NCBI RefSeq assembly: GCF_001625445.1
Contig: NZ_LWHG01000031.1
Span: 1-64,000, forward strand
Source: Haladaptatus sp. R4
GTDB lineage: Archaea; Halobacteriota; Halobacteria; Halobacteriales; Haladaptataceae
Direction: 5' to 3'
DNA length: 64,000 nt
Of this stretch, positions 15,084-52,945 are shown in pieces. The number at the start of each line of letters is the position of its first letter. Within the stretch, counting starts at the first letter, position 1. The translations under genes and the position numbers were made by a program. The notes under the pieces were generated by a model that did not search any database, had not been told where the DNA came from, and saw only the letters and a program-made list of their open reading frames with translations.

Positions 15084-16733
15084 TCAGTCGAAGGATTTGG
15101 TCACGGTCGTTCCACGAACGTCCTTCGGAAGCAACGACCACTTGTGGTGAATCCCGTAACCCGGCGATTCGGCCCACGCGTCGTACTTCTTCGGCCGGTA
15201 TGCGAATCGAGGCTCGGGATACCAGAGCGGAATCGAAGTCGGTTGCTCGTTGAACAGATGCTGCATCTCGAACAGGACGTTCTTCCGCGCCTCGATCGTC
15301 GCCGTCGCCTTCCACTTCTCGAAGAGGTCGTCCCACGCCGGATAGGAGATGCCCTTCTTCCAGAGATAGCCCGATCGATGGGACATCACGAACTGGTCGG
15401 GGTCGGCCACCCCATGTGGGGTAATGCTGCTGATGTACATGTCGAAGTCGCGGGAGGAGAACAGGTCGCCGATGCTGCCGGGGTCGAGCGTCTTCGCCTT
15501 CGTTTCCAATCCGACGGCGGTGAGGTCCTCCGCGACCAGTTCCGCGGCGCGGATGTACGATGGCTCGTTCGACGGTACCTTCAGCGTGAACGAGAGCTTT
15601 TCGCCGTTCGATGACTCCCTGATGCCGTCGCCGTCGCTGTCCTCGAATCCCAACTCGTCGAGCGTCGTCCGAGCCTCGTCCGGGTCGTAGGGTTGTTCGA
15701 TGTCCGACGCGGTCCACGGCGATTTCGGGTGCGGATATCCCTTCGTCCCCGCGATTCCCTGCCCGAGCATGACGACGTCGAGGATGGATTTCTTGTCGAT
15801 GGAGCGGGAAACCGCGTGTCGGAAGTCGTGCGTGTCGAACGGCGATCGCTCGTAGTTGATCCGGATTTCGACCAACGTCAACGACGTGGCGTGGACGACG
15901 TCGAGGTCCTCGTTCGACTCGAACTGTGAGGTCGTCGACGGGGGAACTGCGACGCTCGTCGTGTCTATCTCGCCGCTCTTCAGCGCCGTGAACATGGTCG
16001 AGTGGTCCGTGACGATCGGAATGACGATTTCGTCGACCGACGGCGTCCCCACGAAGTAGTCCTCGTTACGACGGAGTCGAAGGCGCTCGCCCGCCTCGTA
16101 ATCGACGAGTTCGTACGGGCCGGTTCCGACCGGTAACTCGCCGTACTTGTACGGGTCGTCGATGTCCTTCCAGACGTGCTTCGGGATGATCGGCAAGTCT
16201 GCGAACGTGATTGCCGCGAGCGTCGGCGTGGGGTACGCGCCCTCGAAGCGAACCGTTTGGTCGTCCACGGCCTCGATGGTTTTGATGTGCGGTGCCTGAC
16301 TGACGTGGTGGGTGTACCTGTTCGCGGGACCGTCCCGGTAGTATCGGTACGTGAAGACGACGTCGTCCGCGGTGAACGGTTCGCCGTCGTGCCACTTCGC
16401 GTCCGAGCGGACCGTCGCCGTCCACGTCGTCTCGTCGATCTGATTCGTCTCGGTCGCCAGTCCCGGTTCCTTCTGATCCACGTACGGGGAGGGGAAGAGT
16501 AGCCGGTCGTACACCAGGTCCTTCATCCAGTCGAATTTGCTGCTGCTGCTGGCGTAGATGTTCAACGGCGAGCCGGGGTCCGAATCGGTGCCGATACGTA
16601 ACGCGTCACCCTCCGAGTCCGATCCCGTTATCGTATCGAGCTTGCCCGAACACCCCGCGAGGAAGGCGCTCGCGGTAACTGCTCCCGCACCGGTCTTGAG
16701 TAATTCCCGTCTCGACGTTCGTTGCTGAACCAT
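15084..16733 (-). CDS. ABC transporter substrate-binding lipoprotein, SBP family 5
   Basis: 549-residue Tat lipoprotein: twin Arg in RTSRRELLK and lipobox FLAGC with Cys28. The body is a family 5 extracellular solute-binding protein, the group for peptides, nickel and opine-type metallophores: SDAKWHDGEPFTADDVVFTY, NEDYFVGTPSVDEIVI and the C-terminal PSIPLWYPEPRFAYR are diagnostic. It is the first gene of an operon with DppB, DppC-ATPases and two GATase-like proteins. Two TTTAGG-N4-CCTAAA palindromes lie just upstream, suggesting control by a DtxR/Idr iron regulator and therefore a metal-chelate substrate. That substrate idea is inference. Confidence 0.9.
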   Translation of the reverse strand: MVQQRTSRRELLKTGAGAVTASAFLAGCSGKLDTITGSDSEGDALRIGTDSDPGSPLNIYASSSSKFDWMKDLVYDRLLFPSPYVDQKEPGLATETNQIDETTWTATVRSDAKWHDGEPFTADDVVFTYRYYRDGPANRYTHHVSQAPHIKTIEAVDDQTVRFEGAYPTPTLAAITFADLPIIPKHVWKDIDDPYKYGELPVGTGPYELVDYEAGERLRLRRNEDYFVGTPSVDEIVIPIVTDHSTMFTALKSGEIDTTSVAVPPSTTSQFESNEDLDVVHATSLTLVEIRINYERSPFDTHDFRHAVSRSIDKKSILDVVMLGQGIAGTKGYPHPKSPWTASDIEQPYDPDEARTTLDELGFEDSDGDGIRESSNGEKLSFTLKVPSNEPSYIRAAELVAEDLTAVGLETKAKTLDPGSIGDLFSSRDFDMYISSITPHGVADPDQFVMSHRSGYLWKKGISYPAWDDLFEKWKATATIEARKNVLFEMQHLFNEQPTSIPLWYPEPRFAYRPKKYDAWAESPGYGIHHKWSLLPKDVRGTTVTKSFD

Positions 16734-16738
16734 ATATT

Positions 16739-16754
16739 TTTAGGCCGACCTAAA
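16739..16754. promoter_or_regulatory. Putative DtxR/Idr-type operator 1
   Basis: Perfect palindrome TTTAGG-CCGA-CCTAAA, ending 5 bp before the ATG of the SBP gene. The half-site matches the TTAGG/CCTAA core of DtxR-family (iron-dependent repressor) operators. A bound protein here would cover the transcription or translation start. A second copy with identical half-sites lies 35 bp away. Confidence 0.65.
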
Positions 16755-16773
16755 CCATTTAGCATTTCCGGTT

Positions 16774-16789
16774 TTTAGGTGAGCCTAAA
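16774..16789. promoter_or_regulatory. Putative DtxR/Idr-type operator 2
   Basis: Perfect palindrome TTTAGG-TGAG-CCTAAA (extendable by one T/A pair to 16773-16790). Same half-sites and 4-bp spacer as operator 1, and centred 35 bp further from the SBP start. The resemblance to the DtxR consensus TTAGGTTAGCCTAACCTAA is close. It could act on the SBP promoter by itself or with operator 1. Confidence 0.65.
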
Positions 16790-16924
16790 ACTAGATTGTT
16801 GTCAGGTAGAAACTCGAACACAGCGGGGAGATTCTAGCTAGAATATATTTCGTGTAATGAGAACAGTTTTGAAACCAACTGTCGCTCCCTCGAAACTTTC
16901 CCCGCGAGAGACACAATCCCGGCA

Positions 16925-16934
16925 GTTTTTATTA
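16925..16934 (+). promoter_or_regulatory. TATA-like box before RNase J leader
   Basis: TTTTTATTAC is the only good TATA-like element between the divergent SBP operon and rnj. Transcription would begin about 25 bp later, near 16952-16960, giving a leader of about 160 nt that holds four hairpins. Confidence 0.45.
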
Positions 16935-16961
16935 CCCCGGGACGTAGGTGGGAGCAGACTG

Positions 16962-17091
16962 GGCAACTCGCGGGTGTGCGGCATCCCGCCGCGCGCGAGT
17001 GCCAGACCGACGTGCTGTAAGACGCCGGGGTCTGACGCTCGCGGCCCCGCGAGGATTTCAGTGAGCAACGCAACCGTCACGCCGTGTGACG
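16962..17091 (+). ncRNA. Structured RNA leader (four hairpins) upstream of RNase J
   Basis: Four successive stem-loops can be drawn. A: GGCA/CTCGCG with CGCGAG/TGCC, with an inner GCGG-CATC-CCGC (16962-17003). B: CAGACC with GGTCTG (17003-17034). C: CTCGCG-GCCC-CGCGAG (17038-17053). D: CGTCAC-GCCGT-GTGACG (17075-17091). The stretch shows no credible protein on either strand. It sits between a TATA-like box and the rnj start, so it is either a long structured 5' leader or a small RNA. I could not match it to SRP RNA, RNase P RNA, or C/D or H/ACA guides. Confidence 0.45.
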
Positions 17092-17116
17092 TTTCAATGC
17101 TTGAGGAAAGCAAACT

Positions 17117-18463
17117 ATGGAAATCGAAATTGCAACAATTGGCGGCTACGAAGAAGTCGGACGGCAGATGACTGCCGTCCGCGCGGGCGACGATGTCGTC
17201 ATCTTCGACATGGGTCTGAACCTGTCGAAGGTGCTGCTTCACGATAACGTCGAAACAGAGAAACTCCACAGCCTCGACCTCATCGACATGGGCGCGATCC
17301 CGGACGACCGCGTCATGTCCGACTTGGAAGGCGACGTGAAAGCCATCGTTCCGACACACGGTCACTTGGACCACATCGGCGCGATCAGCAAACTGGCGCA
17401 CCGATACAACGCGCCCATCGTCGCCTCCCCGTTCACCATCGAACTGGTGAAACAGCAGATCCAGGGCGAGGAGAAGTTCGGGGTCGAAAACGACCTCATG
17501 AAGATGAGCGCGGGCGAGACGATGCAGTTGAGCGACGAGGTCGAACTCGAATTCGTCAACGTCACTCACTCCATCATCGACGCGATCAATCCCGTGGTTC
17601 ACACCCCGGAGGGTGCCATCGTGTACGGTCTCGACAAGCGCATGGACCACACGCCGGTTATCGGCGACCCCATCGACATGAAGCGCTTCCGCGAGATCGG
17701 CCGCGAAGGGCCGGGCGTCCTCGCGTACATCGAGGACTGTACGAACGCGGGACGCAAGGGTCGAACCCCGAGCGAATCCGTCGCTCGCCGACACCTCAAA
17801 GACGTCCTGTACAGCATCGAGGACTACGACGGCGGTATCGTGGCGACGACGTTCTCCAGCCACATCGCCCGCGTGACCAGCCTCGTCGAGTTCGCACAGG
17901 ACATCGGTCGGACGCCGGTCCTGCTCGGCCGCTCGATGGAGAAGTATTCGGGCACCGCGGAACGCCTGAACTTCGTCGACTTCCCCGAGGAAGTCGGCAT
18001 GTTCGGCCACCGGAAATCCGTGGACCGGACGTTCAAACGCATCATGAAGGAGGGCAAGGAGAACTACCTCCCAATCGTGACCGGCCACCAGGGCGAGCCA
18101 CGCGCGATGTTGACCCGCATGGGTCGCGGCGAGACGCCGTATCAGCTGGAATCCGGTGACAAGGTCGTCTTCTCGGCCCGCGTCATTCCGGAGCCAACCA
18201 ACGAAGGCCAGCGCTACCAGTCCGAGCGTCTGTTGAAGATGCAGGGCGCACGCATCTACGACGACGTGCACGTTTCCGGCCACCTTCGAGAGGAAGGGCA
18301 CTACCAGATGCTCGACGCACTGCAACCGCAACACGTCATCCCGGCTCACCAGGACATGAAAGGCTTCGCGCCGTACGTGGACCTCTGTGAGTCACAAGGC
18401 TACCGTCTCGGTCGTGACCTTCACGTAACACGGAACGGTAACCTCATTCAGCTGGTGGAGTGA
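17117..18463 (+). CDS. rnj: Ribonuclease J (archaeal RNase J, beta-CASP)
   Basis: 448-residue metallo-beta-lactamase/beta-CASP nuclease. The zinc motif HGHLDH lies at residues 81-86. The later VTHSIIDAI, the beta-CASP stretch [15 protein letters not shown] and the C-terminal [20 protein letters not shown] and [10 protein letters not shown] are typical of archaeal RNase J, which degrades RNA 5' to 3'. The ATG at 17117 is preceded by GAGGAAAG, a weak ribosome-binding site. The gene is followed by idsA after 1 bp, so the two are cotranscribed. The unusually structured leader upstream raises the possibility of autoregulation by its own product. Confidence 0.94.
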
Positions 18464-18464
18464 A

Positions 18465-19520
18465 ATGACAGACGCGAGTACGGAATCACGCGAAGAACTC
18501 GTCACCGAGACGGTGGGGCAGCGCCGCGAACTCGTCAACGCCGCGATCGAGGAGGAGCTTCCGATAGTCGAACCGGAGCGCCTCTACGAGGCGTCCCGGT
18601 ACCTGCTCGACGCGGGCGGGAAACGTCTCCGACCGACGGTCCTCCTGCTCGTCGCGGACGCGCTGGCGGACGTCGAACCCATGTCGGAAGCCTATCGAAA
18701 GTTCCCGGCACTCGACGGCGGCGAGGTGGACGTGATGGCCGCGGCGGTAAGCATCGAGGTCATCCAATCGTTCACGCTCATCCACGACGATATCATGGAC
18801 GACGACGACCTTCGTCGCGGCGTGCCGTCGGTTCACCGCGCGTACGACACCGAGACCGCGATTCTGGCCGGTGACACGCTTTACTCGAAGGCGTTCGAAA
18901 TCATGCTGGAGACGGGAGCCTCACCGGACCGCTGTGTCACCGCACTCGACGTACTCGCGTCCACCTGCACGAAGATCTGTGAAGGGCAGGCGCTCGACGT
19001 GTCCTTCGAGGAACGGCCGGACGTCCTTCCGGACGAGTATCTCGAAATGATCGAGAACAAGACGGCCGTCCTCTACGGGGCGGCGGCGAAAGTTCCCGCC
19101 GTGCTTCTCGGTGCGGACGAGGAAACCACCGAAGCGTTGTACCAGTACGGTATCGACGTCGGACGGGCGTTCCAGATTCAGGACGACGTCCTCGACCTGA
19201 CCGTCCCGAGCGAGAAACTCGGCAAGCAACGGGGAAGCGACCTCGTCGAGAACAAACAGACCATCATCACGCTCCACGCCCGCAATCAGGGCGTGGACGT
19301 GGATTCGTTGGTCGAAACCGAGACGGTCGGCGACGTGACGGAAGCCGAAATCGACGCCGCCGTCGAGCGACTCGAAGCCGCCGGAAGCATCGACTACGCC
19401 ACGGAAAAGGCACAGGAACTCGTCCAACGCGGCAAGGACCACCTGGGCGTGCTCCCGGACAACGAATCGCGCTTCCTGCTCGAACAGATCGCCGACTACC
19501 TCATCGAACGCGGCTACTGA
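18465..19520 (+). CDS. idsA: Geranylgeranyl/polyprenyl diphosphate synthase
   Basis: 351-residue short-chain isoprenyl diphosphate synthase. The first Asp-rich motif is HDDIMDDDDLRRG (Asp108/109, 112-115) and the second is FQIQDDVLDLT (about residue 236). GGKRLRPTVL at about 51-60 binds IPP. It condenses IPP with allylic diphosphates to make C15-C20 chains, giving geranylgeranyl diphosphate for archaeal ether lipids and carotenoids. It begins 1 bp after the rnj stop, an arrangement conserved in haloarchaea. A good terminator follows. Confidence 0.94.
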   Translation: MTDASTESREELVTETVGQRRELVNAAIEEELPIVEPERLYEASRYLLDAGGKRLRPTVLLLVADALADVEPMSEAYRKFPALDGGEVDVMAAAVSIEVIQSFTLIHDDIMDDDDLRRGVPSVHRAYDTETAILAGDTLYSKAFEIMLETGASPDRCVTALDVLASTCTKICEGQALDVSFEERPDVLPDEYLEMIENKTAVLYGAAAKVPAVLLGADEETTEALYQYGIDVGRAFQIQDDVLDLTVPSEKLGKQRGSDLVENKQTIITLHARNQGVDVDSLVETETVGDVTEAEIDAAVERLEAAGSIDYATEKAQELVQRGKDHLGVLPDNESRFLLEQIADYLIERGY

Positions 19521-52329: not shown

Positions 52330-52475
52330 CTGGGTCATTCGGAGCACCGCAGTGATATACTTCTTGTGGGGATGTAGGAGAACGAACACATTTTTGATAG
52401 ATCTGATCACGGCATAAAATCACACACGGCGGTCGAATCACAACCCTTAACCACTGGACGGCAGTATGAATTGAT

Positions 52476-52550
52476 AGCGGGATGGGATAGCCAGGAGATT
52501 CCGGCGGGCTCATAACCCGCAGATCGGTAGTTCAAATCTACCTCCCGCTA
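52476..52550 (+). tRNA. Initiator tRNA-Met(CAT), copy 1
   Basis: 75 nt. Acceptor AGCGGGA pairs with TCCCGCT, discriminator A. The anticodon arm GGCGGGCTCATAACCCGC has anticodon CAT with three G-C pairs next to the loop, the initiator hallmark. T-arm GGTAGTTCAAATCTACC. No intron and no encoded CCA. An identical gene follows 281 bp downstream. Confidence 0.96.
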
Positions 52551-52660
52551 TTTTACTTCGATCTCAACTCCCGAATGACGGGTAGAGTCTTGCCGCTGTC
52601 GTCGGGATTGCATGAACCTACGGAGTGGATTTGAATCAGGAAGCGAAGCGGAACGACCGT

Positions 52661-52682: not shown

Positions 52683-52756
52683 TTTACACACGACTTTCAC
52701 CGACCAGTTATTTCTTAATCACAACCCTTAACTACCGGACGGCAGTATGAACTGAT

Positions 52757-52831
52757 AGCGGGATGGGATAGCCAGGAGATTCCGGCGGGCTCATAACCCG
52801 CAGATCGGTAGTTCAAATCTACCTCCCGCTA
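52757..52831 (+). tRNA. Initiator tRNA-Met(CAT), copy 2
   Basis: Identical in all 75 bases to the copy at 52476-52550 and in the same orientation. The upstream flanks are also nearly identical, so both copies are probably expressed from equivalent promoters. Confidence 0.96.
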
Positions 52832-52945
52832 TTTTCTCTTTACTTCACCTCTCAAGCGACGAGCTGAGCCTCGTCGCGGTCATTTAGCTGGATAATCCTG
52901 CGGAGTAGATTTGGATCAGGGAGTGGCGCCAAACGGAACGACCGC

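Follow-up and report, generated by a model that had tools for sequence, protein, structure and literature searches.

A conserved structured leader upstream of the RNase J gene in haloarchaea and its possible role in feedback control

Autoregulatory leaders of RNase messages are known in bacteria from the rne 5' UTR of RNase E, the pnp leader of PNPase and the rnc leader of RNase III. In archaea few cis-regulatory RNAs are known, as stated in the accessible text of PMC7247131, and a literature search, with preprints and most subscription papers outside its range, found no description of a structured archaeal rnj leader. According to the accessible part of PMC10470531, RNase J (aRNase J) is essential in Haloferax, which is without the exosome; the Haloferax enzyme has endonuclease activity, and the RecJ3/4-aRNase J complex acts mainly in the 3'-5' direction.

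The rnj-idsA locus and the fold of its leader

The window, as the whole stretch of 64,000 nucleotides of Haladaptatus sp. R4 DNA analysed here is called, carries rnj on the + strand at 17117-18463. Its product scores 422.9 bits against NCBIfam TIGR00649 (cut-off 400), contains the RNase J beta-CASP domain of Pfam PF22505 and has the RNase J chain 5haa as its closest solved chain (E 3.7e-167). Only 1 nt separates it from the next operon gene, idsA (18465-19520, + strand), encoding a polyprenyl synthase (PF00348). Among the 80 named loci, the best 80 of 416 relatives, idsA follows rnj on the same strand in all 80, at a distance of no more than about 26 nt from the estimated rnj end in 79, so that the operon and not rnj alone may be the target of the leader. 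The idsA product also exceeds the cut-off of NCBIfam NF040789, geranylfarnesyl diphosphate synthase (624 bits versus 560), and C25 chains are therefore a possible product.

A TATA-like box had been proposed in a sequence-only reading of the window, and the element is indeed present as TTTTTATTA at 16926-16934 (+ strand). Further upstream, a divergent gene on the - strand (15084-16733) encodes the ABC substrate-binding protein of an oligopeptide/nickel-type transporter, and its promoter harbours the palindromes TTAGGCCGACCTAA (16740-16753) and TTAGGTGAGCCTAA (16776-16789). Their resemblance to operators of DtxR-family metal regulators would point to metal control of the transporter. In a distant part of the window, a pair of tRNA-Met (CAT) genes (52475-52551 and 52756-52832), scored identically by Rfam, is spaced by about 280 nt.

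Four consecutive stem-loops had been read between the promoter and rnj. Each of them can form locally (16962-17003, -29.7 kcal/mol; 17004-17034, -10.3; 17038-17053, -8.6; 17075-17091, -7.1), and the form with four hairpins in a row totals -59.6 kcal/mol, but the best fold of 16954-17116 reaches -78.9 kcal/mol and contains a closing helix that joins 16958-16974 to 17046-17062. The best fold therefore does not form 16962-17003 and 17038-17053 as hairpins of their own, and the strand swaps described below likewise favour a three-way junction. The fourth hairpin is kept in both versions, as P4. The architecture supported by comparison is a three-way junction, formed by a P0/P1 closing helix, P2 and P3 and followed by P4, and not four independent hairpins.

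The junction domain occupies 16954-17066 (+ strand, as are all its parts), on the evidence of the matches of two covariance models, R1 and R2, and by the minimum free energy (MFE) fold. In the latter the 5' strand of P0 (16958-16963), which coincides with the predicted transcription start, is paired to 17057-17062, a 3' strand that the comparison with Halorussus, where P0 reads UAGACC/GGUUUA, also indicates. P1 is made of CUCGCGGG (16967-16974) and CCCGCGAG (17046-17053), present in the MFE fold and backed by covariation and strand swaps; in several Haloferax leaders it is missing from the MFE fold. P2 (16976-16994; MFE pairing of 16976-16982 with 16988-16994) is a variable hairpin whose length and sequence differ from genus to genus. 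The P3 hairpin (16995-17042) pairs 16995-17015 with 17024-17042 and holds the conserved core GACGUGCUGUAAGACGCCGGGG; in this core and in the basal strands of P2 the letters themselves are conserved, and not the pairing alone. The apical loop of P3, UGUAAGAC (17016-17023), which resembles a T-loop motif, is by eye lost or degenerate in several genomes. P4, the MFE hairpin CGUCACGCCGUGUGACG at 17075-17091, lies near the rnj start codon and carries a compensatory change, U-A in the window for the C-G of most relatives.

The fold is more stable than those of shuffled sequences (z -2.8 for 16940-17070, with 0 of 200 shuffles as good; z -2.4 for 16925-17116, with 2 of 200). The median stability z of 73 class A leaders, as leaders of this architecture are called below, is -1.84; the corresponding values are -1.29 in 80 rnj coding controls and -0.48 in 79 upstream controls. 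Energy z-scores were rejected as proof in the case of class A, which barely exceeds the coding controls; on the sequences compared, it is conservation together with covariation, and not stability, that indicates function.

Conservation, covariation and a second leader class

Across nine Haladaptatus genomes, 160 of 197 columns are fully conserved in 16920-17119, compared with 3 of 180 in 16720-16899, and conservation ends sharply near 16910. The gene upstream of the leader varies by genus, in a rough survey whose predicted open reading frames include shadow frames; the leader therefore appears to travel with rnj.

Detection across genera was approached with three models. R1, a covariance model made from Halorussus leaders only, found the leader of the window at 16956-17065 with 36.0 bits (E 4.4e-5) and gave 36 matches at E ≤ 1 over 86 sources, one of them (L094:4485-4597) off the leader. 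R3, a sequence-only model derived from the alignment used for R1, yielded 58 at that threshold, two of which were not on the strand or at the place of a leader (L038, minus strand, and L079:7151). It detects more leaders than R1, though in most cross-genus cases with a lower score: its scores compare with those of R1 as 30.6 to 36.0 bits in the window, 15.4 to 32.4 in L011, 14.3 to 27.0 in L071 and 25.0 to 23.5 in L042. Cross-genus detection thus shows conservation, to which structure, judged from these sequence scores, adds in most but not all cases; that R3 reaches at least as widely as R1 (58 versus 36) was counted against the explanation preferred here.

R2, a broader covariance model built on 37 leaders, Haladaptatus included, matched the window at 16954-17065 with 85 bits (E 3.8e-18). 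At E ≤ 0.01 it found 113 of 194 genomes of the haloarchaeal class and 41 of 65 genera, some of the matched genera being in its training set, and 110 genomes were matched once; rnj is present in all 194. Of its 116 matches, 99 could be checked against a listed rnj position and 17 could not: 95 of the 99 lie on the same strand, 29-323 nt upstream of rnj, and the four located elsewhere have E-values of 0.0015-0.0074. A search of 196 genomes of the phylum matched 24, the two outside the class (E 0.006-0.008) being at about chance level. The P3 core as a pattern, with at most one mismatch, occurs in 95 of the 194 class genomes, a few of these occurrences lying off the locus, and its backward control in none.

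A search with the DNA of the window itself matched 30 of 59 genomes, its own included, with partial weak matches that are hard to interpret; the neighbouring protein served instead as query, and named RNase J loci were fetched from 80 haloarchaeal records, the best 80 of 416 relatives. They include ten Haloferax genomes, the copy of H. volcanii itself not being among them. Class A was recognized by the P3 core, or by CCCGCGGG followed by an AAGTG-like motif. By pattern, 77 of these 80 loci (again the best 80 of 416) carry a class A or a class B signature, the latter described below, and of the remaining three L067 resembles class A by eye, L073 and L106 class B. Twenty further regions, mostly from genera with a weak or no model match, were also assigned by eye to one class or the other. 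No RNase J relatives were found in viral contigs. In four Halorussus sources (L015, L021, L022 and L029), the stretch from the junction to the rnj ATG contains small hairpins of GTGGC-TTTGCCAC type in tandem; their copy number varies by species, and they make the rnj leader longer.

Covariation was counted on A3, an alignment of 16 Halorussus leaders made from sequence alone, whose consensus yields P0, P1, P2 and P3. This Halorussus subset was used because alignment A2 (26 leaders) gave in RNAalifold only parts of P2 and P3; aligning 68 class A leaders at once with MAFFT gave a poor result, of which RNAalifold retained part of P3 only. The consensus structure of A3 leaves 96.5% of 508 cells paired, as against 36.9-46.6% in six versions slid by 1-3 columns, and contains 21 double-change cells versus 7.7 in shuffles, none of 500 being as high; these controls correct only partly for relatedness, and the structure counted was derived from A3 itself. 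Double changes occur at 7 of 32 pairs, 3 of 7 in P1 and 4 of 14 in P3, the clearest being P1 columns 21-94 (G-C in 8, C-G in 7) and P3 columns 47-86 (A-U, C-G and G-C). A higher count from another alignment, A6 (24 of 32 pairs with double changes), leans to the structure of the model and is not relied on; A6 was made without sources L027 and L016, where A5 had false matches, and the true leaders of both are absent from it.

Strand swaps in 26 leaders of Haladaptatus, Halomicrococcus and Halorussus favour P1 (z -6.65) and the base of P3 (z -4.57) over the pairing of the first proposed hairpin, 16962-17003 (z -2.5), and over that of the third, 17038-17053, which is worse than its swaps (z +3.4). 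In the 16 Halorussus leaders alone the values are -5.1, -1.8 and, for 16962-17003, -1.2. An alternative class A pairing, s1:s2, has z -2.5. The lack of conservation or covariation had been named beforehand as a possible refutation; conservation was found in the nine Haladaptatus genomes and covariation in A3, and the proposal of a structured, non-coding rnj leader, conserved and without an Rfam match, is supported.

Many haloarchaea without class A have another, rod-like leader upstream of rnj. This class B reads AACCGAG...CGGYCGYCC...GRCGRCCGGC...CUCGG and occurs in genomes of family f4 and some others. The exact pattern is found in 24 of 194 genomes, in every case 164-246 nt before rnj. In a set of 24 class B leaders, CUCGG ends 9-11 nt before the ATG in all; their rods are very stable, with -71 to -184 kcal/mol, and the median stability z is -4.57 (23 leaders). 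Strand swaps in 22 of these 24 leaders, L073 and L075 having failed the pattern, gave z -5.6 and -2.4 for two mutually exclusive pairings, b1:b2 and b1:b4 respectively, and no signal for b2:b3 (z -0.4) or b3:b4 (z +0.3); the values are uncorrected for relatedness. The two pairings of b1 hint, as far as swaps can tell, at two class B states. The joint alignment A7 of class B was poor, and the structure was not counted on it. No core shared between classes A and B is visible. In family f8, where class A is present in many members, one genome carries a class B leader before rnj (G088:C1:2754602-2754645), a case of leader replacement or transfer.

Predicted transcript start and candidate roles of the leader

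The usual archaeal spacing between TATA box and start would place the transcription start at the beginning of the closing helix. Counted from the start of the T-run, this helix begins at 28-32 nt in every class A leader that could be measured (72 of 75) and at 29-31 nt in every such class B leader (23 of 24), a count that leaves out L012, L013 and L067 of class A and one class B leader without a TATA match; a TATA match is absent from three of the 99 leaders. From this distance and the usual spacing, the transcript of both classes is predicted to begin in or beside the closing helix. A start just before the rnj ATG, giving a leaderless message, had been conceived as a refutation; on sequence grounds, the conservation and constant spacing of the TATA element speak against such a start. 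In the accessible text of PMC4983044, 72% of the Haloferax protein-coding transcripts observed are leaderless, and HVO_2724, taken here as the Haloferax rnj, is unnamed in the main text of that start-site paper. According to the accessible part of PMC7237163, HVO_2724 contains a motif of RNA 3' ends, for which a reporter showed 11% termination.

The reading that we prefer takes 16954-17116 as a cis-acting 5' leader of the rnj-idsA message that sets the amount of RNase J, likeliest through feedback, and we regard its chances as about even. The leader itself is well supported, its conservation, fold, restriction to rnj and promoter at a fixed spacing having been shown above; we infer the transcription start, the regulation in cis and RNase J as the sensed factor. 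The message would be transcribed from its own TATA promoter, starting at about 16954-16958, and would fold into the three-way junction, whose P0/P1 closing helix would include the 5' end; P4 would lie near the start codon, and the leader would set the RNase J level in cis. When abundant, RNase J, alone or with RecJ3/4, would recognize or cut the leader, leading to message decay or to less translation; at low levels of the enzyme the message would be shielded by the folded leader, in which the 5' end is hidden. RNase J is the first candidate for the sensed factor since the element stands at one gene only, the enzyme is essential in Haloferax and halophiles have no exosome. The idea had started from a nuclease acting from the 5' end, a premise weakened by the endonuclease activity and the mainly 3'-5' activity of the complex that the accessible part of PMC10470531 reports for Haloferax, so that hiding of the 5' end may not matter. 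An extension to autoregulation of RNase J across the archaeal class, in which classes A and B would both cage the 5' end and switch between exclusive pairings, read by RNase J or by the RecJ3/4 complex, is tentative and rather doubtful.

A leader in cis could instead respond to another factor, such as a metabolite, an ion, a tRNA or a ribosomal or other RNA-binding protein, and control the rnj-idsA operon in a riboswitch-like or protein-bound manner. Sequence conservation in the P3 core and in the basal strands of P2 is what a binding pocket would show, and all 80 named loci (the best 80 of 416 relatives) have an isoprenoid gene, idsA, after rnj. A metabolite riboswitch, however, usually controls several genes, while 95 of the 99 matches that could be checked place this element at a single gene; moreover, the P3 loop is degenerate in several genomes and class B has no visible shared core. 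We consider sensing of another factor a serious candidate, albeit an unlikely one. Somewhat less probable still is a passive element for stability or translation, shielding the 5' end or positioning the ribosome without sensing anything. Such a role fits the location of the closing helix, which in classes A and B alike lies at the predicted 5' end, as well as the extreme stability of the class B rods and their end 9-11 nt before the ATG, but a shield would need neither a conserved P3 core nor a three-way junction.

The element is compact and conserved and has a promoter element of its own, as an independent small RNA gene preceding rnj would. That is very improbable, given that none of the checkable matches with a strong E-value lies away from rnj, that the window has no T-run longer than three from the junction to the ATG, that P4 and conserved letters extend towards the start codon, and that the closing helix of class B ends so near to it. 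Chance folding of a GC-rich stretch, with which the class A energies, little better than those of coding controls, would agree, is refuted by the covariation, the conservation and the cross-genus detection by R1 and R2.

A leader before an essential decay enzyme across haloarchaea is a concrete, testable case of archaeal control at the RNA level, for which H. volcanii offers a genetically tractable host, and the swap of architecture at one gene raises the question of which property is selected.

Comparison with known RNA families and leaders

Over the whole window Rfam finds four tRNAs only, leaving the leader unmatched, in agreement with the earlier reading, which saw no match to SRP RNA, RNase P RNA or guide RNAs. 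The Rfam 15 cmscan of 16880-17180 gave nothing at the gathering score, its best result being a chance match (E 5.7, 11.3 bits versus 44), and no guide RNA family (H/ACA or C/D) matched in that region or in the window. Readings as a standalone sRNA, a guide RNA or a member of a known family were considered and set aside.

The rnj element has the covarying, conserved structure, directly upstream of one gene and on its strand, by which a cis-acting structured mRNA leader is recognized. The promoter spacing supports its transcription as the 5' part of the message, and its position directly upstream of a TIGR00649 RNase J is that of an RNase autoregulatory leader, provided that the stretch is, as predicted, a UTR. 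With riboswitches it has in common a junction with a conserved core in a 5' leader; it differs from them in standing at one gene only and in having two architectures for that gene. The S15 leader of Halobacteria (rpsO, recJ), as far as the accessible text of PMC7247131 describes it, is a cis leader of the same class, also supported by covariation. The window element was rejected as an instance of it, the gene concerned being rnj, with idsA, and not rpsO; the S15 leader was compared by that description only.

The bacterial rne, pnp and rnc leaders are alike in being structured 5' UTRs before the gene of an RNA-decay enzyme. The rnj leader differs from them in being archaeal, in its fold and enzyme and in having no Rfam match, and feedback, in its case, is a proposal. 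Leaders of RNase messages are thus already known in bacteria, and the one described here is an archaeal variant with an architecture of its own.
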